The position numbers and the translations under genes were made by a program. The notes under the pieces were generated by a model. It was not told where the DNA came from and made no database searches. It saw only the letters and a list, made by a program, of their open reading frames with translations. Below, in pieces: positions 200-17,902 of a DNA stretch of 64,000 nt (its first letter is position 1; every line of letters starts with the position of its first letter). The stretch comes from Deltaproteobacteria bacterium Ga0077539. GTDB taxonomy: Bacteria; Myxococcota_A; Polyangia; Polyangiales; Ga0077539. Location: the NCBI GenBank assembly GCA_001465015.1, contig LNEO01000332.1, positions 1-64,000 of the forward strand, given 5' to 3'.

Positions 200-2272
200 A
201 TGGCTTCGTCCCCGCGACTTTCGCTGACCGCGGTCACGCTCGTTCTCGCGAGCGCCCTCGCCGCGTGCGGCGCGAAGACCGGGCTTCGAGTGCGTCCCAG
301 CGACGCGTCGCAGGACGCGCCGGTCGACGACGCTCCGGCGCAAGACATCGCGGATGTTCGGGACGTCGTGGATGCTTCGGACGCCGACGCTCCGTCGCCG
401 CCAGACGTGGTTGTGGATGCCCCAGACGTGGTCGAGCCGCTCGAAGAGCGCTGCGTCGAGCGTCGCGTGGTGACGACGCTCGGACAGATGACCACGGTCA
501 TTCCTGGACTCGATCGCGTCGTCGAGCGCGGGTATCGCTGGGAGCTCGAGGCGATTCCCCCCGGATCGCGAACGACCATCACGATGGACGACGCGCCGAG
601 CGCCACGCTGACGCCGGATCGGCCGGGGCAGTACCGCGTCGTCGCGCACGTTCGACGGCAGTTCGGCGTCGGTGAGCTGCGATGCCCGATCCTCGTCACG
701 GCGAACCTGGCGGATCCGCGCTGTCCTGGGGAGGCGCTGGTCGAGCCGCAGATCGTGCAGTTTCCGTCGATGCGCTCGCAGCTCGGGCTCGATCCCGCGT
801 GGATCGCCGTGCGTCGCGCCACCGGCTCGGACGCGGCCTTCATCACCGCGGACGACGACCTCGCGGGTGTATCTGCGGTCGCCCTCGAGCGACCCGCGAC
901 TGACTCGCTCGAGAATCACTCGCTCGTCGTCGAAGCGCAGCTGCGCTCGCCGCTCGGCGCGATCGCGTCCCTCATCGGTCGCATGCTCCGCACCCCCGAC
1001 GGAACGCCCGTTCGTCGCTCGACGTTTCGCTTCAACGCGCCATCGCCCACCACGGCGGACCGCGTCCGCGACCAGATCGCCTCGATCGTGAGCAACTCGA
1101 TGGTGCCTCGCGTGCTCGGCCTGCGGCACGGGTCGGACACGGCGTTCTTCGTCGAGCTCACTGCTGCGCTGCGCGCGGACGTCGGCTCGGTGTACTTCTT
1201 GATCACGGTCGCGCCCGTGAGCGCGACGGAGAACACCGCTCGCGCAACGGCGTCTCGCGTCGAGGACTTCGTCAATGGTTCGGCGCTCACGACCGCGGGG
1301 CGGATCAACCAGATCGTCTGCGACCTCGACCGCGCGACGCGCACAGCGAAGGCTGACTTTCTCTGGTTCGTCGACACCTCGGGCTCGATGAACAACGACC
1401 AACAGCTGGTCGGGCAGAGCGCGCAGCAGTTCTTCAGGGACCTCGAGGTGGCCGGCGTCGACTTTCGAGTGGGTGTCTTTCAAGCAGGAAGCGCGACGCC
1501 CGTCCTCGCCGGACCTCCGCCGTTTGATTTCGTGCTCGGCACCAACCCGATGGGCGCGCTGCAGGTGGCGTACCGCGTGACGTCTCAGCCGTTCGCGATG
1601 ATGACGGCGGATATGCAGCGGCCGTTTCCCAACATGGGAGGCAGCGAAGAGCCGGCGGCGTGTTCTGTGCTCACAATTCAAGAGTTCGAGCGCCGCGCGG
1701 CGGCCGGCGAGACGAACCCCAACTTCGTGTTTCGCGACGACGCGGTCCGCGTCGTGTTCTGGGTCACCGACGAGCCCGGAACAAACGACGACGGCCGCTT
1801 CTTCGGCCGCGACCAGACCCGCTGGGGAAACACGATCACGCTTCGCACGCAGCGCATCGCGGACTTCTTTCGCTCGCGCGGCGTCTTGCCCTTCGGCCTC
1901 GTGCCGATCCGCGCGGGGTGGGGCTGCGATCGCGACGCCACCAACCTCTTGTCCTGCGTGATCACGGCCGCGGGCGGCGCCTACGTCCCGATCAACGAGA
2001 CCAACGTCGCCGAGCGCGACATGGCGTTTCGCGCGGCGATGTCGCGCGTGGTCGCGAGCACGGCCGGAGCGGGATCGGAGTTCTCTCTCTCGCAGCCGCC
2101 GATCTCTTCGTCCATCCGAGTCCGTCTGGTCGACCGGATCGTTCCGCGGTCGCGGGCAGACGGATTCGACTACGATGGGGTGGCGAATTCATTGGTGTTT
2201 CGGGGTTCGATGTTTCGCCCTCGCACGGGCGACGAAGTGCGCAGCGCGTACTTCACATGGCGCGCGCCCTGA
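200..2272 (+). CDS. Lipoprotein with von Willebrand factor A-like domain
   Basis: ORF 161..2272; start moved to MASSPRLSLTAVTLVLASALAAC (lipobox-like LAAC). MIDAS-like 'FVDTSGSMNNDQQ' and 'VVFWVTDEPG'. Confidence 0.8.
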   Translation: MASSPRLSLTAVTLVLASALAACGAKTGLRVRPSDASQDAPVDDAPAQDIADVRDVVDASDADAPSPPDVVVDAPDVVEPLEERCVERRVVTTLGQMTTVIPGLDRVVERGYRWELEAIPPGSRTTITMDDAPSATLTPDRPGQYRVVAHVRRQFGVGELRCPILVTANLADPRCPGEALVEPQIVQFPSMRSQLGLDPAWIAVRRATGSDAAFITADDDLAGVSAVALERPATDSLENHSLVVEAQLRSPLGAIASLIGRMLRTPDGTPVRRSTFRFNAPSPTTADRVRDQIASIVSNSMVPRVLGLRHGSDTAFFVELTAALRADVGSVYFLITVAPVSATENTARATASRVEDFVNGSALTTAGRINQIVCDLDRATRTAKADFLWFVDTSGSMNNDQQLVGQSAQQFFRDLEVAGVDFRVGVFQAGSATPVLAGPPPFDFVLGTNPMGALQVAYRVTSQPFAMMTADMQRPFPNMGGSEEPAACSVLTIQEFERRAAAGETNPNFVFRDDAVRVVFWVTDEPGTNDDGRFFGRDQTRWGNTITLRTQRIADFFRSRGVLPFGLVPIRAGWGCDRDATNLLSCVITAAGGAYVPINETNVAERDMAFRAAMSRVVASTAGAGSEFSLSQPPISSSIRVRLVDRIVPRSRADGFDYDGVANSLVFRGSMFRPRTGDEVRSAYFTWRAP

Positions 2273-9434: not shown

Positions 9435-10619
9435 CTACGCTTTTGCGAGCGCGGTCACGGCGCGCCGAAGCACGTCCATCGCCGCGTCGATCTCGTCGTC
9501 TTCGAGGTACGGCGCGGGCCCCAGGCGCAGCAGCGCTCCGCGAGAGTCTGCGTAGACGCCTTCGTCGCGGAGCTTTGCGACCAGCGCGGAGGCGTGGGGC
9601 GTCGAGAGCGAGACGAACCCCCCGCGCCGCTCGGGGGCTGCGGGCGTCGCGAGGGCGAGGCCGTCGATCGACCGCGCGCGATCGATGATCCGCTCGGTCT
9701 GGGCGAGGGAGGTCGCGCGCAGCGCGTCGACGGTGAGCCCTTGGTCGTCGAAGAAGCGCGCGACGGCCCTGGCTCGAAAGAAGCTCGCCGGGTCGAAGGT
9801 CGAGCCCGCGAATCGCGACGCCCCGTCGGACTCGTACGCGACTTCGCCGCGCGTGCGCCGATCGGAGAGCGACGAAAACCCTGCGAACCAGCCGGTGAGC
9901 ACGGGCCTCAACTGGCAGCCGGCCGGCACCTTGAGAAAGCACGCGCCCTCTCCCCACTGCGCGTACTTGTACCCGCCCCCCACGAAGAACGCCGCGTCAG
10001 GAACAGTGAAGGCGACCGCGTCGAACGCGTGATACCCGTCGATCAGGACGCTCGCCCCGACGCGCGCGGCGCGCTCGATGAGGACCTCGAGGGACGGGAC
10101 GATCGCGGAGGTCGCGAACATCACACACGAAATCAAAACGCCTGCGGTCTGTTCGTCGACGACCTCGGCCATGCGCTCGCAGAGCGTCTCTGCGGGCTCG
10201 CTCTCGACGAAGACGACGTCGAGCGCCGGGAGCTCGGCGGCGCGGCGCAGCTGCCTGAACGCGGCGTGAAACTCGCCGTCGGTCGTGACGATCCTCGGCC
10301 GCTTGGACAGATCCAGCGCCGAGAGCCAGCGCACGAGGAGCTCGTGGGTGTTCTGTCCGAACGCGTAGTCTCTGGCGGCTCCGCCGAGGCGCGCTGCGAG
10401 GTGCGCGCGGAGCTCGTCTTGCGCGGCGAAGACCGCCGCCCACTTGTCGTCGACGTCGCGCGCGGCGACGTCGTAGCTCTCGATCAGGCCGTCGCGGGCG
10501 ACCGAGGGCCAGGCCTGGTGCGAGTGTCCCGTGAGCAAGATCCTGCGGCCGGGGCGCGGGGCGAGAAAGTCCTGGTAGTGCGCGCGGAGCGAGCGTGCGT
10601 CGATGCGGTGCGCGGTCAT
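9435..10619 (-). CDS. Kynureninase-like / class V aminotransferase-fold PLP enzyme
   Basis: Start MTAHRIDARSLRAHYQDFL; PLP-site-like 'FFVGGGYKYAQWGEGACFLKVP'. Confidence 0.75.
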   Translation of the reverse strand: MTAHRIDARSLRAHYQDFLAPRPGRRILLTGHSHQAWPSVARDGLIESYDVAARDVDDKWAAVFAAQDELRAHLAARLGGAARDYAFGQNTHELLVRWLSALDLSKRPRIVTTDGEFHAAFRQLRRAAELPALDVVFVESEPAETLCERMAEVVDEQTAGVLISCVMFATSAIVPSLEVLIERAARVGASVLIDGYHAFDAVAFTVPDAAFFVGGGYKYAQWGEGACFLKVPAGCQLRPVLTGWFAGFSSLSDRRTRGEVAYESDGASRFAGSTFDPASFFRARAVARFFDDQGLTVDALRATSLAQTERIIDRARSIDGLALATPAAPERRGGFVSLSTPHASALVAKLRDEGVYADSRGALLRLGPAPYLEDDEIDAAMDVLRRAVTALAKA

Positions 10620-11341
10620 CGCGACGGTTGTACACCGTGTCTTCTGAGCGCGGCACGCGCGAGGATGCGGGGAATGGTGAAGAGCGCGTCGCGCCAGCGC
10701 ACTCCGCTTGGCGCGCCCTCGTAGACGGGGCGGACGGTCACATCGACTACGGTCAAGCCGCGCACGGCGAGGGCGCTCAAGAGGTCGTTGGGATAGCCGT
10801 AGCGGGGCCACAGCGCGTCGAGGTCGAGCGCCTCGAGGGCTGGGCGGCGAACGGCGGTGTAGCCGCACTGCGAGTCTCCGACGTGCCAGAGACCGGTGGC
10901 GCCGCGGGTGAGCGCCGAGAGCGCGACGTTGCCGACGAGGCGAACAGCGGGCATCACGCGGAGCACCGAGCGGTGGCGGAGCCTGTTGCCCTTGGCGTAG
11001 TGCGCGTCGCCGAGCGTCACGGGAGCGAGTAGCGCAGGGAGGTCTGCTGGGTCCATCTGCCCGTCGCCCGCCATCACGACGACGACGTCTGCGTCCCCTG
11101 CGAGCGCTCGCTTGTACCCGGTGACGATCGCGGCCCCGACGCCGCGGTTGAATTCATGGGTGCACACCTCGAGCCCGTCGCGTCCGGTCGCGCGCGCGAC
11201 GGCGCTCGTCGCGTCGCGGGATCCATCATCGACGATGATCACGCGATCGACCCAAGAAGGCAGCGTCGAGATCACTCGACCGATTCGCGATGCGACGTCG
11301 AGCGCTGGCACCACGGTGGCGATTCGGTGACCGTCGAACAC
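10616..11341 (-). CDS. Glycosyltransferase family 2
   Basis: ATVVPALDVASRIGRVISTLP...VIIVDDGSRDAT...GDGQMDP GT2 signature; GTG start inferred at 11341; stop overlaps next gene start. Confidence 0.8.
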   Translation of the reverse strand: MFDGHRIATVVPALDVASRIGRVISTLPSWVDRVIIVDDGSRDATSAVARATGRDGLEVCTHEFNRGVGAAIVTGYKRALAGDADVVVVMAGDGQMDPADLPALLAPVTLGDAHYAKGNRLRHRSVLRVMPAVRLVGNVALSALTRGATGLWHVGDSQCGYTAVRRPALEALDLDALWPRYGYPNDLLSALAVRGLTVVDVTVRPVYEGAPSGVRWRDALFTIPRILARAALRRHGVQPSR

Positions 11342-11512
11342 GCGTGGTTTGTAGCAAACGAAACGCCGCGGCTGCAGACCATGACGCGTCGTGAAGCGCG
11401 GCGAGCGCGGTCGGTGGACTCGGGGCGGGGCCAGTGATTTCTCGCTGGGGGGACGACCTCGATCCAGCGGTCGCTCGAGGGTCGCCGAGCGCCCCGTCGC
11501 TCGATCGTCGTA

Positions 11513-11606
11513 GGGTGCATCTACTCCCATACGACGACAGCCTCGGCGCGGCAGCGAGGGACGACAGCGGCGGCGCCCCGGCTGTCGTATGGGAGTAGAT
11601 GCACCC
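11513..11606. repeat. Long imperfect inverted repeat (hairpin)
   Basis: Arm 1 gggtgcatctactcccatacgacgacagcc (11513-11542); arm 2 (11580-11606) reverse complement gggtgcatctactcccatacgacagcc; identical except one 3-bp insertion. Confidence 0.9.
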
Positions 11607-12038
11607 ATCGTCGTACGGCTCTCGATTGTTTGGTGGCGGCGTGCGTTGCTCTGTCGTCGTTCAGGCCGACAGTGCGCCGGTTGTCGCCAGGGTTCATGGT
11701 GGCAGGGTGCAGACGATGAGGGCTGGGCTTCGCAGGTGCGTCGGAGTCTTATGGGTCACCAGATGTGTGCTCGAGTCGATTCGTCGATTGGCGTTGGCGC
11801 ATGTTTCGGAGTTCTGCTACGATGTTTGGGGTTTGTATCCGCGTCTCGAACCGACATCGGTCCGCGTGCAACTGTTCCTTGTGTTGAAGAAGCTCGGGGA
11901 ACACAGAGATGGAACCTCCACGATCGGTTTTGTAGACATACTAGCGCTCAGGGTGCGCCAACACCGTTCGTTGCGGGTCGAGTGCGCGACGATGCGAGCG
12001 CGCTCGGGCTCGGCGCGAGGGGTCCGAGGGGGTGACGC

Positions 12039-12686
12039 ATGACTTCGACTTCGGTCGCGATCTTTGACCGGGACGGTGTGCTGACAAGCTTCGAGTTGTC
12101 ATCACTTCGTGGCTTTCTCGCGGAGGTTGGCTTGTCGCTCGAGGGGCTGATGAGCGCATGGGAACCCTGGTATCGCGCGCGCACGCTGCCCAAGAACATC
12201 ACGGAAGAGCGGGCCTTCATCGCCGCGTTCTTTACGGACTTTTGCAAGACGAACAGCTTGCCGAGCGCTGCGAGAGATACGCTGGTGTCCTTTGACTACG
12301 CCTCGCTGGTGAGGCCGTTTGCCGACGCGCGTCCAGCGCTGGCCCGGGCTCGATCACAGGGGCTTCGAACCGCGGTGTTGTCGAACTTTCCTCTCGTTCG
12401 GCTGGGGGATTCGCTCGCGGCCGCAGGGCTCGCGGACCTCGTGGACGCGGCTTTCGCCGCTCCTGTGATTGGGTACTCGAAACCCGATCCCCGCGCGTAC
12501 TTACATGTCGCCGAGGCGTTCGGCGTCGCGCCCGAGCGCTGCGCGATGATCGACGACGAGCTCGACTGTGTCCGCGGCGCCCAGGCTGTCGGGATGCGCG
12601 CGTGGCTGCTCGATCGCCGCGGAGTCGCGCCGTCCTCGCTCTCGAGCCTCGACGAATACTGCGCTGCGCTGGAGGGAGTGTCGTGA
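12039..12686 (+). CDS. HAD-superfamily hydrolase
   Basis: Motif I FDRDGVLT, motif II VLSNFP, Lys in YSKPDPRAY, motif IV MIDDELDCVRGA. Confidence 0.9.
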   Translation: MTSTSVAIFDRDGVLTSFELSSLRGFLAEVGLSLEGLMSAWEPWYRARTLPKNITEERAFIAAFFTDFCKTNSLPSAARDTLVSFDYASLVRPFADARPALARARSQGLRTAVLSNFPLVRLGDSLAAAGLADLVDAAFAAPVIGYSKPDPRAYLHVAEAFGVAPERCAMIDDELDCVRGAQAVGMRAWLLDRRGVAPSSLSSLDEYCAALEGVS

Positions 12687-12785
12687 ACAAGGCCTCCCTC
12701 GCATTGGTTCGCGCTGGCCTCGTAGTGGGCTAGACACGTTGCTTTCTGCAAAGCCGCCCTCGGTGAGGGCACAAGGAGTTTGGCC

Positions 12786-13904
12786 ATGCAGTGCGATGAC
12801 TTGAACCCCATGGACGGCATCGAACGACCGGAGAAGTTCGGTGGGGTATTCTCCAGTACGTGGTCCAAGTACGGACCGATGATGAATGAAGCCAGGGCTA
12901 CGCTCCAAGCGTTTCCTGTGCCGAAGCCGATCCGCGCGTACTTCGAGTACGCGGTGCTCGATCGTCCTCAGCCCGGGTACATGCTGCTGCCGCTCAAGTT
13001 TCTGGCGATCGCCGAGCAACATGGAGGGATCACCCAGCGGCACAGAGACTATCTACCTTGGTACGTCCTCGCGATGGAGGTGGTGGCGCTGCTCGATGAC
13101 ACCGTCGACCACACCCCGTATCGCTCTCATCGAATGACGTACACTCGGCGGTTCGGTGAGTGCTCTGCCGCCGCGATGGCGGGCTATTTGATGAACATCA
13201 CCCTCGAGCAAACGGCGCGGACCGCGCCCGAGGTGCTGCCGATGGTGGTCCGCTTCTTCGAAACGCTCTGCTCGCTCGAGGTCTGGGAGCTCCATTCGCG
13301 CTATCCCAACATCGACGACGATGTGCTCGAACGCTGGCTCGACAACCGCTACGAGATGGCCACCGACGTGTACGTCCACTCGTTCAACAGCGCGCTTCGC
13401 CTCCACGGGCTCGAAGAGCTGCAGCGCGACGCGTGCAAGCACTTTGCGGCGCTGTCTCAGGGCGTCGATGACCTCGTCGGAATCGTCGAGGCTCGTGAGA
13501 ACATCGGCGAGAACGACGACCTGAAGATGGGAATCGTCACCTTTCCGCTCGTGGCTGCGCTGCGCGCGGAGCCTCAGGTCGCCGTCGCGCTCGAACGCGT
13601 GTGGGAGCCGTGTCGCCGACTTCGGACCGAGGCCATGGAGCGCTATCTCGATGACCTCGAGCGCTGCTTCGATGACACGCGCGCCGAACAGAAGCAGCTG
13701 CTCGATTGGCTCTCGCAGCACGCGGTGCGCGCGACGGTCGACGAGGTGCTACGACACGCCGCGCTCCTCGACGGGCTTACCCCGCCATATCTACGCGACT
13801 CTGTAGGTCTGGTCGCCTGGTCCTACATCGACCGCCTCCGCGACGTCGATCCCCGCGCCTCGATGCAGGCGCGCCTCCGAGAGGCGTCGCTTGTCTCAGG
13901 GTGA
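12786..13904 (+). CDS. Divergent isoprenyl diphosphate synthase-fold / terpene synthase-like protein
   Basis: 'EVVALLDDTVDH' (DDxxD first Asp-rich motif), 'RFGECSAAAMAGYLM' aligning with FG..xA..AG..L, 'GVDDLVGIVEARENIGENDDLKMGIVTFPLVAAL' in second Asp-rich region. RBS-like aagga upstream. Confidence 0.65.
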   Translation: MQCDDLNPMDGIERPEKFGGVFSSTWSKYGPMMNEARATLQAFPVPKPIRAYFEYAVLDRPQPGYMLLPLKFLAIAEQHGGITQRHRDYLPWYVLAMEVVALLDDTVDHTPYRSHRMTYTRRFGECSAAAMAGYLMNITLEQTARTAPEVLPMVVRFFETLCSLEVWELHSRYPNIDDDVLERWLDNRYEMATDVYVHSFNSALRLHGLEELQRDACKHFAALSQGVDDLVGIVEARENIGENDDLKMGIVTFPLVAALRAEPQVAVALERVWEPCRRLRTEAMERYLDDLERCFDDTRAEQKQLLDWLSQHAVRATVDEVLRHAALLDGLTPPYLRDSVGLVAWSYIDRLRDVDPRASMQARLREASLVSG

Positions 13905-14161
13905 TCGCGGCGATTCGACCATGCGGCGACGTCCGCGGCGGGCGCAGAGTCGGATTTCTGGCGACGGGAGCCTGTCCGATGTCTCGGCGGCGCATCTGCG
14001 ATGCTTCATGGTGGCGCCGTTGCATCGAGCGCGCGGGTGCGCTGGCGTGCGACACTGTGGGTCGACCGCGTGGACTCATCGGACTTGTCGCGAACCGGAA
14101 AAAGTGGCACGCTACTGAGCGCTTTCGTACTGCGCTCCCCTCGAATCGCAATGATCGCCCC

Positions 14162-14545
14162 ATGAACAACACCGACAACCGAGGTTCGACCGAGACTCGA
14201 TACCTCGACGGCAAAATCGTCGAGACCATCTATTATGGGAAGATTGTTCCCGAACACCTCGAGGAGGTGCGCGTCGCCCTCGAGCGCGAGTTCACGAGAA
14301 TCGGCGGGGGAGACTGGTTGCTCGACACCTCGAGGGCGGACGGCCTGAAAGCGGCGCCGTCCGCGGCGAGCGCGGCGTTTTTCGAGGCTTTTCGTCGCGC
14401 GGGCGGTCGCCGCATCGCGGCGGTCGTTGGCTCCTCGCCGCTGCGCATGCTCGGTTCGGCGGTCGCGTTCGCCAGTGGACTGGACATCAAGTTGTTCGCC
14501 ACTCGCGACGAGGCGCTCAAGCACCTGCGTTCTCCAGTACGGTGA
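14162..14545 (+). CDS. STAS/SpoIIAA-like domain protein
   Basis: MNNTDNRGSTETRYLDGKIVETIYYGKIVPEHLEEVRVAL...LDTSRADGLK; C-terminal part of ORF 13706..14545. Confidence 0.55.
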   Translation: MNNTDNRGSTETRYLDGKIVETIYYGKIVPEHLEEVRVALEREFTRIGGGDWLLDTSRADGLKAAPSAASAAFFEAFRRAGGRRIAAVVGSSPLRMLGSAVAFASGLDIKLFATRDEALKHLRSPVR

Positions 14546-14730
14546 TCTGCCGGACTCTGCGTGGATGTAGCGTGTAAGCTCTTCGTCGGCGGCATCTGCG
14601 CTTATCCGACATCGTCGGTAGCGATCGTCGTGCGGCAGCGAGCCGCGCGGTCGACGGCTGTCGTCATCTCGCTCGTGCGCCGGTGTGAGCCTGTGTAACG
14701 ACACGGGGTGGAGGCTGCGGTGCTGCGGGC

Positions 14731-14771
14731 GAGTAAGGTTACATATGTGATTGATTTTGTTGGATTTTATC
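14731..14771 (+). promoter_or_regulatory. AT-rich island, possible promoter region
   Basis: gagtaaggttacatatgtgattgattttgttggattttat, markedly AT-rich relative to surroundings, upstream of the nucleoside hydrolase gene. Confidence 0.3.
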
Positions 14772-14857
14772 GTTGCGCGCAGCCTCGTTTGTGCTCAGCT
14801 TACTGAGTGATGATGGGCCGTATTTTCTCTGTGTTCAGTTCTCGAGAGGAGGGTCAC

Positions 14858-15964
14858 ATGGCAAGTCGTCGGATGGGGCTGGGGTGTTCGGTAGCGCTCG
14901 TCGCGCTCGCGACCAGCTGTGCCAATAGCGATCAAGTTCCCAATGAGATCGCTGCCGAGGTAAGCGAAATCAGGGTCGGTTGCGAGCCTCGTACGCCGAT
15001 CATTTTCGACTCCGACATGGACTTCGATGACACCGCGGCTCTCGCCTACCTCGCGCGTCGGCACAAGGCCGGACAGATCGAGCTTCGGGCGGTGACTGTC
15101 ACCAACAACGGCGCGGGATTTCCCGGACAGGCGATCCGCCACGCTCGCTGTTTGCTGGCGGAGTTCGGCCTCTCGCACATCCCCGTCGCCGACGGATCGC
15201 CGACGGCGGTCAACTCGTTTTCGCCGGTGCTCCGGTTCGCGATCAGCCAGATCCTCGGCGACACGTTCGCGAGCTGCACCGCGTCGACGGCGTCGAGCTC
15301 GGTGTCCGCCGCGCAGACCATCGCCAACACGATCTCGTCCTCGTCGCGACCGGTCACGATCCTCGCCACCGGCCCGCTCACCAACGTCGCGAGCGCCTTC
15401 GCGATCATGTCGTCCAGCGGTCGGCCTTTTCCGCTCGCGAAGGTTCGTCGCACCGTCGTCATGGGCGGCGCGGTCCGCGTCGCGGGCAACGCGGACGTCG
15501 GACCCACCTCTGACGGAACACAAGAAATCAACATCTGGGCGGATCCCCCCGCGGCGCAGGCCGTCGTCAGTCGGCTCACGCCCGCGCGCCTCACGCTCAT
15601 CCCCCTCGACGCCACCAACCACGCGCCGGTCACCGCCGCGTACCTGGCGCGAATCAACGGCGATCAGAGCACGATCGAAGCGCAGTACGTCTCGCGCTTG
15701 ATGAACCACCCGTTCATTCAGTTTGGCGTCGCGACGGGCGCGCCGCTGTACTGGTGGGATCCGGTCGCCGCGATCGCCGCGAGCTCGATCTCCAGCGAGG
15801 GGGTCGTCAACTACGAGTGGCTTCGCATCGGCGTCACCCAGACCGGCGTCCAGCAAGGACGCACCGTCGAGCTCTCGAGCGGGCGATCATTCGCGCGCGT
15901 GGGAACCTCAGCGAACACCGCGCTCTTCGAGAACGAGTTTCTCGACGGCCTCAACGGTCGCTGA
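14858..15964 (+). CDS. Lipoprotein nucleoside hydrolase (inosine/uridine-preferring family)
   Basis: Lipobox-like 'LVALATSC'; IIFDSDMDFDDTAALAYL Asp cluster; ILATGPLTNVA. Confidence 0.85.
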   Translation: MASRRMGLGCSVALVALATSCANSDQVPNEIAAEVSEIRVGCEPRTPIIFDSDMDFDDTAALAYLARRHKAGQIELRAVTVTNNGAGFPGQAIRHARCLLAEFGLSHIPVADGSPTAVNSFSPVLRFAISQILGDTFASCTASTASSSVSAAQTIANTISSSSRPVTILATGPLTNVASAFAIMSSSGRPFPLAKVRRTVVMGGAVRVAGNADVGPTSDGTQEINIWADPPAAQAVVSRLTPARLTLIPLDATNHAPVTAAYLARINGDQSTIEAQYVSRLMNHPFIQFGVATGAPLYWWDPVAAIAASSISSEGVVNYEWLRIGVTQTGVQQGRTVELSSGRSFARVGTSANTALFENEFLDGLNGR

Positions 15965-15967
15965 TCG

Positions 15968-17902
15968 CTACGCCCGAGCGAGGGCCCGCACGAGCGCGAC
16001 AGCGCCGAACAAGTTCGATCGGACGCACGGCGCACGGGCGGCGGTCACTCCGTCGAATCCCACTTCGCTCAGCGCCGCCAGGACGCGGCCGCGCTCGGCT
16101 CCGTCCAGCTCGTCCGCGAGCGCCGTGGGGCCATCCGCCGTGACGAGCGCGTATGCCAGCAACGGCGCGAAGTCGTTTTGCGGGTCGTCGATGTCCACGA
16201 TGGTCTGCAGGTCGCTCGATCCCAAAGCTGCCCAACGGTAGAGCGTCTCGCGTCGCGTTGGGTCGACCTCGACGCGCTCGACCTCGCGTCCCAGTCGTTG
16301 GTCGATCCAACGATCCGAGCGCGGCGTCGGAGACAGGTACGAAGCGCCCGCTCCTCGCCCCGTCGGCGCAGGAGGGATGCTGCTTCGCCGACTGAGCGGC
16401 TGTCGATCGTCGTCGACCTCGCGAAAGCTCAACGTCGACAACAAGCGCTCGCACTCGAACGAGTCGCGAGGTCGGGCCTCGGCGTCCTTCGAGAGCAGGG
16501 CCTCGATGAGCGCGTCGTACTCTGTTCCCAGCGCGGGGCGCACCGCCGAGACCTTGGGCGGCGCGTTGTGCAGGTGCTGATCGACGAAATCAGGCCCGGC
16601 GAAGGGCGTCTGCCCCGTGAGCAACTGAAAGAGCAGACAGCCAAACGAGTACAGGTCGGTCGCGGCCGACACCGCGCCTCCCGTGATCTGCTCGGGCGAC
16701 ATGTACGGCAGCGATCCGACGAGTCCTCCGGTCACCGTGGCGCCGAGGTCGCTCAAGTGCGCGGCGCCGAGGTCGCCGAGTCGCGCTTGTCCCGCAGGGT
16801 CGAACAGGACGTTGGACGGCTTGATGTCACGGTGGACGACGCCGTGTCGGTGCAGCACCGAGAGCGCTCGCAGCACGCGCTGCGAGATGGCGCGCGCCTC
16901 GGCGAGCGAGAGCGTGGCGATGCGTTCGGTGAGCGTTCCGCCGGGCATCCAGTCGTAGACGATGGTCGGGCCCTCGGGGTCGAGCGCGCGCATGCCGACG
17001 ATCGTCGGGTCATCCAGCGAGCGCGCGAGCTCTGCCTCTCGCATGAACCTCGCGAACGCCGCGCCCTTGTCGTCTCCAACGGCGAGGACCTTGAGCGCGA
17101 CGGTCTCGCCCGTGAGCTCGTCGACCGCTTCGAGCACGCGGCCCGAGGCGCCAGAGCCCACCTGCTTCACGACCCGATAGCGCCCGGCGTAGCGCTCTTC
17201 GCTCTGCCCGCGCGGGAGCGTCGATCCGTATGCCTCGACGTCGAGCGAGGCGTCGGGCTTCAGCAGCCGGAGCCGGCGGATCACGACGCGGGCGGCGCCC
17301 TCGAGGCCGATGCGTCGCAGCGATTCGATCAGCTTTTCGAGCGCGCCGGGGCCTGGCTGATGCCGCGCGGCGAGCTGCAGGGCGCGCACCGCTCCCTCGT
17401 CGTCGCCTCGTCCAGCGCGCAGCACGGCGAGCCGCTCGGCCGCTTCGTTGTCCTCGGGAAACTGCGCCAGGTGTTGCTCGTACGCGACGATCGTGCGCCC
17501 GACGTCCTTGGCTCGATCGAAGCAGCGCGCCGCGTAGAGGTACTCGCCGCGCTCGTACCAGCCTTGCCCTGCTTCTGCGGGAAACAGCGGCTCGAGGATC
17601 CTCGCGGCCACGTCGTGGCGCTGCGTGATCCTCGCGTGGGCCGCGGCGGCCTCGGCGATGTCGCCGCGCTTTCCGACCTCGTCGCACAGGGCGGCGATCA
17701 CCCGTTCGTCGCCGGACGAGAGCGCGGCGTCGATGGCCGAGCGCCACTCTCCCGCGTTGAGGGCGACGACCGCGGCCTCTGCGTGCCTTCCGAGCAGCGC
17801 GAGCAGCTCGGCTGCGCGACGGTGCAGTCCCTTTTCACTCGCGCGGCGCGCGGCGCCTTCGATGTCACCGGCGCGGACGAGCGCGTCGACTTCGGGGTCC
17901 AT
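15968..17902 (-). CDS. Serine/threonine protein kinase with N-terminal helical-repeat region
   Basis: Start MDPEVDALVRAGDIEGAARRASEKG; GSGASGRVLEAVDELTGETVALKVL; HRDIKPSNVLF; YMSPEQ. Confidence 0.9.
   Translation of the reverse strand: MDPEVDALVRAGDIEGAARRASEKGLHRRAAELLALLGRHAEAAVVALNAGEWRSAIDAALSSGDERVIAALCDEVGKRGDIAEAAAAHARITQRHDVAARILEPLFPAEAGQGWYERGEYLYAARCFDRAKDVGRTIVAYEQHLAQFPEDNEAAERLAVLRAGRGDDEGAVRALQLAARHQPGPGALEKLIESLRRIGLEGAARVVIRRLRLLKPDASLDVEAYGSTLPRGQSEERYAGRYRVVKQVGSGASGRVLEAVDELTGETVALKVLAVGDDKGAAFARFMREAELARSLDDPTIVGMRALDPEGPTIVYDWMPGGTLTERIATLSLAEARAISQRVLRALSVLHRHGVVHRDIKPSNVLFDPAGQARLGDLGAAHLSDLGATVTGGLVGSLPYMSPEQITGGAVSAATDLYSFGCLLFQLLTGQTPFAGPDFVDQHLHNAPPKVSAVRPALGTEYDALIEALLSKDAEARPRDSFECERLLSTLSFREVDDDRQPLSRRSSIPPAPTGRGAGASYLSPTPRSDRWIDQRLGREVERVEVDPTRRETLYRWAALGSSDLQTIVDIDDPQNDFAPLLAYALVTADGPTALADELDGAERGRVLAALSEVGFDGVTAARAPCVRSNLFGAVALVRALARA

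Follow-up and report, generated by a model that had tools for sequence, protein, structure and literature searches.

What does a protein with the layout of an isoprenyl diphosphate synthase (IDS) do once its IPP site has been lost, and what is the role of the phosphatase and the nucleoside hydrolase encoded beside it? The question is raised by a locus in Deltaproteobacteria bacterium Ga0077539, for which we analyzed a window of 64,000 nt (GCA_001465015.1, contig LNEO01000332.1, positions 1–64,000, forward strand); the window denotes this whole stretch. An initial annotation had proposed a candidate IDS-derived terpene synthase paired with a HAD phosphatase. In the following, G000 is the genome of the window, G001 and G002 are its congeners, and G410, G480 and G489 are the other carriers of the IDS-like gene.

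The locus and its gain or loss as a unit

The following features make up the locus and its edges:

10616–11341, minus strand: glycosyltransferase-like gene (start uncertain), outside the module and marking its left edge
11342–15979, no strand: module block with the HAD, IDS-like, SpoIIAA-like and nucleoside hydrolase genes, missing from G002
12039–12686, plus strand: HAD-IA hydrolase, putative phosphatase (PF00702, E 1e-20; motif residues present)
12773–12778, plus strand: AAGGAG, the ribosome-binding site serving the IDS-like gene, read from the sequence
12786–13904, plus strand: IDS-fold protein, the central enzyme, with the Mg2+/allylic site kept and the IPP site lost
14162–14545, plus strand: SpoIIAA-like (STAS-type) small protein (22.1 bits, slightly under the cut-off of 25)
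14858–15964, plus strand: nucleoside hydrolase with a lipoprotein-type N-terminus, closest solved relatives purine-specific (IAG)
15968–17899, minus strand: protein kinase gene (start uncertain), outside the module and marking its right edge

The HAD and IDS-like genes lie where the initial annotation had placed them, co-directional and 99 nt apart, and the IDS-like reading frame begins at the ATG at 12786 with AAGGAG in front of it. In G002, a congener, 28 bp separate the orthologues of the glycosyltransferase-like and protein kinase genes, and the 4.6-kb block that lies between these genes in the window (11342–15979) is absent; elsewhere in G002 no clear orthologue of the HAD, IDS-like or nucleoside hydrolase gene was found. 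The block was gained or lost as one unit, either by gain in G000/G001 or by loss in G002. The repeat search found no terminal repeats of the mobile-element kind, and a plasmid search gave no match. An imperfect inverted repeat of 47 nt (77%, 14-nt loop) at 11506–11613 lies between the glycosyltransferase-like gene and the module, close to where the block starts on the left.

An IDS fold with a rebuilt acceptor site

The IDS-like protein matches the Pfam family polyprenyl_synt (PF00348) with 39.2 bits against a cut-off of 27 (E 6e-10). An AlphaFold2 model built on the five orthologues described below has a pLDDT of 84 and a pTM of 0.85, and the best 50 PDB chains listed for it are all prenyl synthases (TM to query about 0.47–0.66). 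The IDS layout claimed in the initial annotation is thereby confirmed, and the protein is a member of the IDS-fold family, assigned to no functional subfamily. Known adenylate isopentenyltransferases (IPT) have a P-loop fold; in its model the IDS-like protein has the IDS fold and not one of the P-loop NTPase type.

The five orthologues were compared in an alignment with 30 canonical IDSs of their phylum, almost all of which belong to their order, at positions that are invariant or nearly invariant among these 30. The GGKRxRP motif of the canonical enzymes is P(G/A/S)(Y/F)(M/L)LLP in all five orthologues, and the His of the IPP pocket, seven residues ahead of DDxxD (position 97), is M, L or S. 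In each orthologue the RR pair has become RS, with R113 kept and the second Arg replaced by S114, and the GK preceding the last Asp has become GE (Lys replaced by E242), while the Lys of GKxT (position 250) is variously I, M, A or T. Kept in all five are DDxxD (104, 105, 108), R113, Q225, D228, D229 and D245. The second Asp motif reads VDD(L/V/I)V(G/N), its last residue being N in four of the five and G in the window, and we counted it as conforming to the metal motif DDxx(D/N). The NSE/NSD triad of canonical class I terpene synthases was not found in the orthologue alignments. Thus the intact DDxxD, the lost IPP site and the missing NSE triad reported in the initial annotation all hold across the family; of the replacements it had read by eye, those at GK.RP, the Arg pair and the GK before T stand, and the one at KT falls in a region (window residues 188–193) where the alignment is ambiguous.

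As judged from these residues, the acceptor side has been rebuilt in a conserved way and the ionizing side largely kept, which is not decay. The loss of the IPP pocket implies that IPP has ceased to be the acceptor, and nothing more: a cyclase would fit, and so, just as well, would a prenyltransferase that uses a different acceptor. All five orthologues have small or aliphatic residues immediately ahead of DDxxD, so that under the chain-length rule commonly applied to IDSs a prenyl chain longer than C5 would be possible.

Distribution and gene tree

Of 184 genomes searched in the order, the IDS-like gene is present in five (G000, G001, G410, G480 and G489). A class-level search of 318 genomes returned the same five together with weak matches, of which three were checked and have canonical motifs, and in a phylum sample of 379 genomes all matches fell within the class-level set. 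The G001 locus is also present in a Myxococcales MAG record (JAEUKI010000072.1), and a scan of GTDB contigs with two narrow peptide patterns retrieved the G001 locus only.

The five orthologues form a clade apart from the 30 canonical IDSs (support 100/100), whose attachment point among the IDSs is uninformative owing to long branches. Within the clade, G410 and G480 stand opposite G489 and the pair of window and G001, the latter split having support of 94/78; G489 thus groups with window/G001 though it shares a taxonomic family with G410 and G480. One further polyprenyl_synt match in G480 is unrelated to the five orthologues: a 550-aa reading frame (L114 661–2313, minus strand) that appears to be an unusual fusion of an N-terminal polyprenyl_synt half with a C-terminal half resembling HExxH-type (AHELAHH) peptidases.

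Partners of the IDS-like gene

The HAD protein has the motif I Asp pair, the Ser, the Lys and the acidic motif IV of HAD-IA phosphatases (D10, D12, S115, K148, D172), so that the complete set of motifs noted initially is real. Its orthologues occur in exactly the five IDS-like genomes of the 184 (E <= 5e-90; next best 1e-19), and the gene lies at the IDS-like gene in all five loci, upstream in G000 and G001 and downstream in G410, G480 and G489. The pairing has outlived the reordering of the genes, which is evidence of a shared function; given this varied order and clear orthologues in exactly five genomes, we reject the view that the HAD gene is a chance neighbor. The nearest models are a mixture of dehalogenases and phosphatases, and homology thus gives no substrate.

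An N-ribohydrolase, which the initial annotation had not mentioned, is present at all five loci, a nucleoside hydrolase in one clade and a LOG in the other. The nucleoside hydrolase of the window (14858–15964) matches PF01156 (8e-39) and its closest solved relatives are inosine-adenosine-guanosine nucleoside hydrolases. It has DxDxxxDD and the Trp ahead of the last active-site Asp, as in group II, and aligns at the Trp-Asp pair that marks the purine-specific group II enzymes (PMC8910321). Its N-terminus, read by eye, is of the lipoprotein type and predicts export. Strong orthologues occur only in G000, G001 and G489 of the 184 genomes, each inside the IDS-like cluster. In the stretches read around the G410 and G480 loci no nucleoside hydrolase gene was found; there, a LOG-type phosphoribohydrolase gene overlaps the IDS-like gene, which in turn overlaps the HAD gene, forming a LOG-IDS-HAD operon. 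Both LOG proteins score above the cut-off of TIGR00730 and contain the PGGxGTxxE motif, and both are under the cut-off of the cytokinin-specific equivalog NF058542. G410 has a second LOG elsewhere. Directly upstream of the G480 operon and on the same strand lies a gene (L057 8556–9656, minus strand) with a LuxR-type HTH-like C-terminus, possibly a dedicated regulator.

The gene tree matches this gene content, with LOG in {G410, G480} and nucleoside hydrolase in {G489, window, G001}. Two unrelated enzymes that, by their families, would cut the same type of N-glycosidic bond adjoin the same prenyl enzyme, which suggests that its reaction partner is a nucleotide or nucleoside of the purine type. 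G001 by itself is little proof of the nucleoside hydrolase link, since the region there is syntenic with the window, but an accident of synteny is countered by G489, from another family and with altered gene order, and by the empty site in G002. As window/G001 and G410/G480 are related pairs, all from draft genomes, the N-ribohydrolase link rests on about two independent lineages.

SpoIIAA-like genes are found at the nucleoside hydrolase loci also outside the window: two in G001 (L002 491–919, minus strand, and 950–1438, plus strand) and one in G489 (L032 2596–2988, minus strand), where it sits between the HAD and IDS-like genes. They are possibly incidental.

A possible route to prenylated purines

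The explanation that we favor, albeit tentatively, is that the IDS-like protein may be a non-elongating IDS-fold prenyltransferase in a purine module, where a prenyl group would be transferred to a purine nucleotide and the product passed to the HAD protein and then to the N-ribohydrolase. It is supported by the IPP site lost in all five orthologues, the HAD pairing, the division of the N-ribohydrolases that matches the tree, and the empty site in G002. In the scheme we infer the substrate, the product, the order of the steps, the export and the prenyl chain length. The IDS-like enzyme would ionize an allylic diphosphate at the Mg2+/DDxxD site with no coupling to IPP, and the carbocation would be captured by a purine nucleotide, for which the neighboring genes suggest an acceptor of the AMP type as most likely. 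The HAD protein would dephosphorylate the prenyl-purine nucleotide to the riboside. In the clade of the window, the riboside would then leave the cytoplasm and the nucleoside hydrolase of the envelope would free the prenylated base, and in the sister clade (G410, G480) LOG would free the base straight from the nucleotide.

There are precedents for parts of this scheme. LOG and a HAD phosphatase act on AMP in angustmycin biosynthesis (PMC8599513), the IDS-family enzyme PaxC has a non-IPP acceptor (PMC3760044), and the follow-up enzymes of cytokinin nucleotides are LOG, nucleotidases and nucleosidases (PMC8234997). Several points count against it: no purine-binding motif was identified in the IDS-like protein, the HAD gene is retained in the LOG clade where it should be less needed, enzymes of the LOG and nucleoside hydrolase families serve other uses too, the N-ribohydrolase link comes from about two independent lineages, and the Lys residues at 242 and 250 are lost as well. 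A broader proposal, which we regard as a doubtful possibility, is that bacteria evolved a second, separate route to N-prenylated purines, either resembling cytokinins or bearing longer terpenyl groups; in it, prenylation of a purine nucleotide by an IDS-fold enzyme, in place of a P-loop IPT, would be followed by the HAD protein and by alternative N-ribohydrolases, an envelope nucleoside hydrolase or LOG. A literature search for myxobacteria and cytokinins found no paper on that combination.

Alternative explanations

The chief and a serious rival is the terpene synthase of the initial annotation, which would ionize GPP, FPP or GGPP and then cyclize or hydrolyze it; the HAD protein would dephosphorylate a prenyl or terpenyl phosphate, and the N-ribohydrolases would be bystanders or serve another step. 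The protein is an IDS homologue that has lost its IPP contacts and kept DDxxD, which is the pattern of the fungal IDS-like terpene synthases; there, the substitution R81P at the equivalent Arg turned off the IDS activity and turned on that of a terpene synthase, and in one of the fungal enzymes the second Asp motif is of the ordinary kind (PMC7484799). Fusions of HAD domains with terpene cyclases are also known (PMC12365925, PMC9128629); the cyclases in them are of another type. On the other hand, terpene synthases are absent both from the best 50 PDB chains listed for the model and from the best sequence matches, and this explanation leaves the N-ribohydrolases of two unrelated types at every locus unaccounted for. 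The computable observations named initially as speaking against a terpene synthase, namely an unrelated fold, intact IPP residues and a HAD pairing not shared by relatives, did not materialize, the HAD gene being conserved at all five loci in spite of changed gene order. Of the initial reading, the fold and the lost IPP site therefore stand and the identity as a terpene synthase is not established; given the whole module, the label is possible, with perhaps a modest chance of being right, but not the best supported.

Alternatively, an IDS-fold prenyltransferase could use another acceptor, such as indole, an amine, a sugar phosphate or free adenine, the N-ribohydrolases supplying its substrate rather than finishing its product. 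PaxC, which uses indole-3-glycerol phosphate (PMC3760044), and the angustmycin pathway, where LOG supplies adenine from AMP (PMC8599513), lend this some weight. We nevertheless consider it unlikely, as a nucleoside hydrolase predicted to be exported would hardly feed a cytoplasmic enzyme, and no gene for an alternative acceptor was recognized adjoining the module.

Very unlikely, in our judgment, is a non-catalytic or regulatory relative of IDSs, for instance the partner subunit of another prenyl synthase. It would agree with the loss of the Lys residues at 242 and 250, which help to bind the allylic diphosphate and whose absence leaves any activity of the protein putative. Retention of all the metal-binding Asp residues, R113 and Q225 among orthologues of about 34–53% identity nevertheless argues for catalysis. 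Finally, we reject an ordinary but divergent chain-elongating prenyl diphosphate synthase as hardly conceivable despite the Pfam match over the curated cut-off and the IDS fold, because the Lys and Arg of GKxxR, the His and the second Arg of RR that bind IPP are replaced in all five orthologues, and the host genome, like its congeners, already has two canonical IDSs.

If purine prenylation is the true function, it would join chain elongation, cyclization and indole prenylation among the reactions known for the IDS fold; these Myxococcota would possess a set of genes, dedicated and exchangeable, for signals made of prenylated purines, and the product may resemble some plant hormones, which are prenylated purines. 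Under the terpene synthase reading too, the family would be an IDS-like one from bacteria whose partner phosphatase is defined.

Comparison with known systems

With the trans-polyprenyl diphosphate synthases (PF00348; solanesyl, octaprenyl and heptaprenyl types), the five proteins share the fold, DDxxD, the second Asp pair and the positions of Q225 and D245, and differ in the replaced IPP pocket, in forming their own clade and in having HAD and N-ribohydrolase neighbors. The fungal IDS-like terpene synthases (PMC7484799) are alike in the IDS fold, the lost IPP-contact Arg and the kept DDxxD. They are, however, close relatives of GGPP synthases, whereas the family described here is a distant bacterial clade that has lost the full IPP site and for which no cyclase activity is known.

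The angustmycin cluster (PMC8599513) resembles the loci in combining a LOG (AgmA) and a HAD phosphatase (AgmB) in one purine natural-product pathway; it is without a prenyl enzyme, and at the loci studied here we noticed no counterparts of the epimerase and phosphoribosyltransferase genes that it contains. Cytokinin modules of IPT and LOG, such as fas of Rhodococcus fascians, have LOG beside a prenyl enzyme as in G410 and G480, and phosphatase and nucleosidase steps are named in the review of these pathways (PMC8234997). The prenyl enzyme here is of the IDS fold and not of the P-loop type, and neither a P450 nor a cytokinin dehydrogenase was noticed among the module neighbors read. The fungal PaxC, compared by its description (PMC3760044), differs in its acceptor, indole-3-glycerol phosphate, and is like the present family in being an IDS-family enzyme with DDxxD and an altered second motif, PaxC itself using an acceptor other than IPP.
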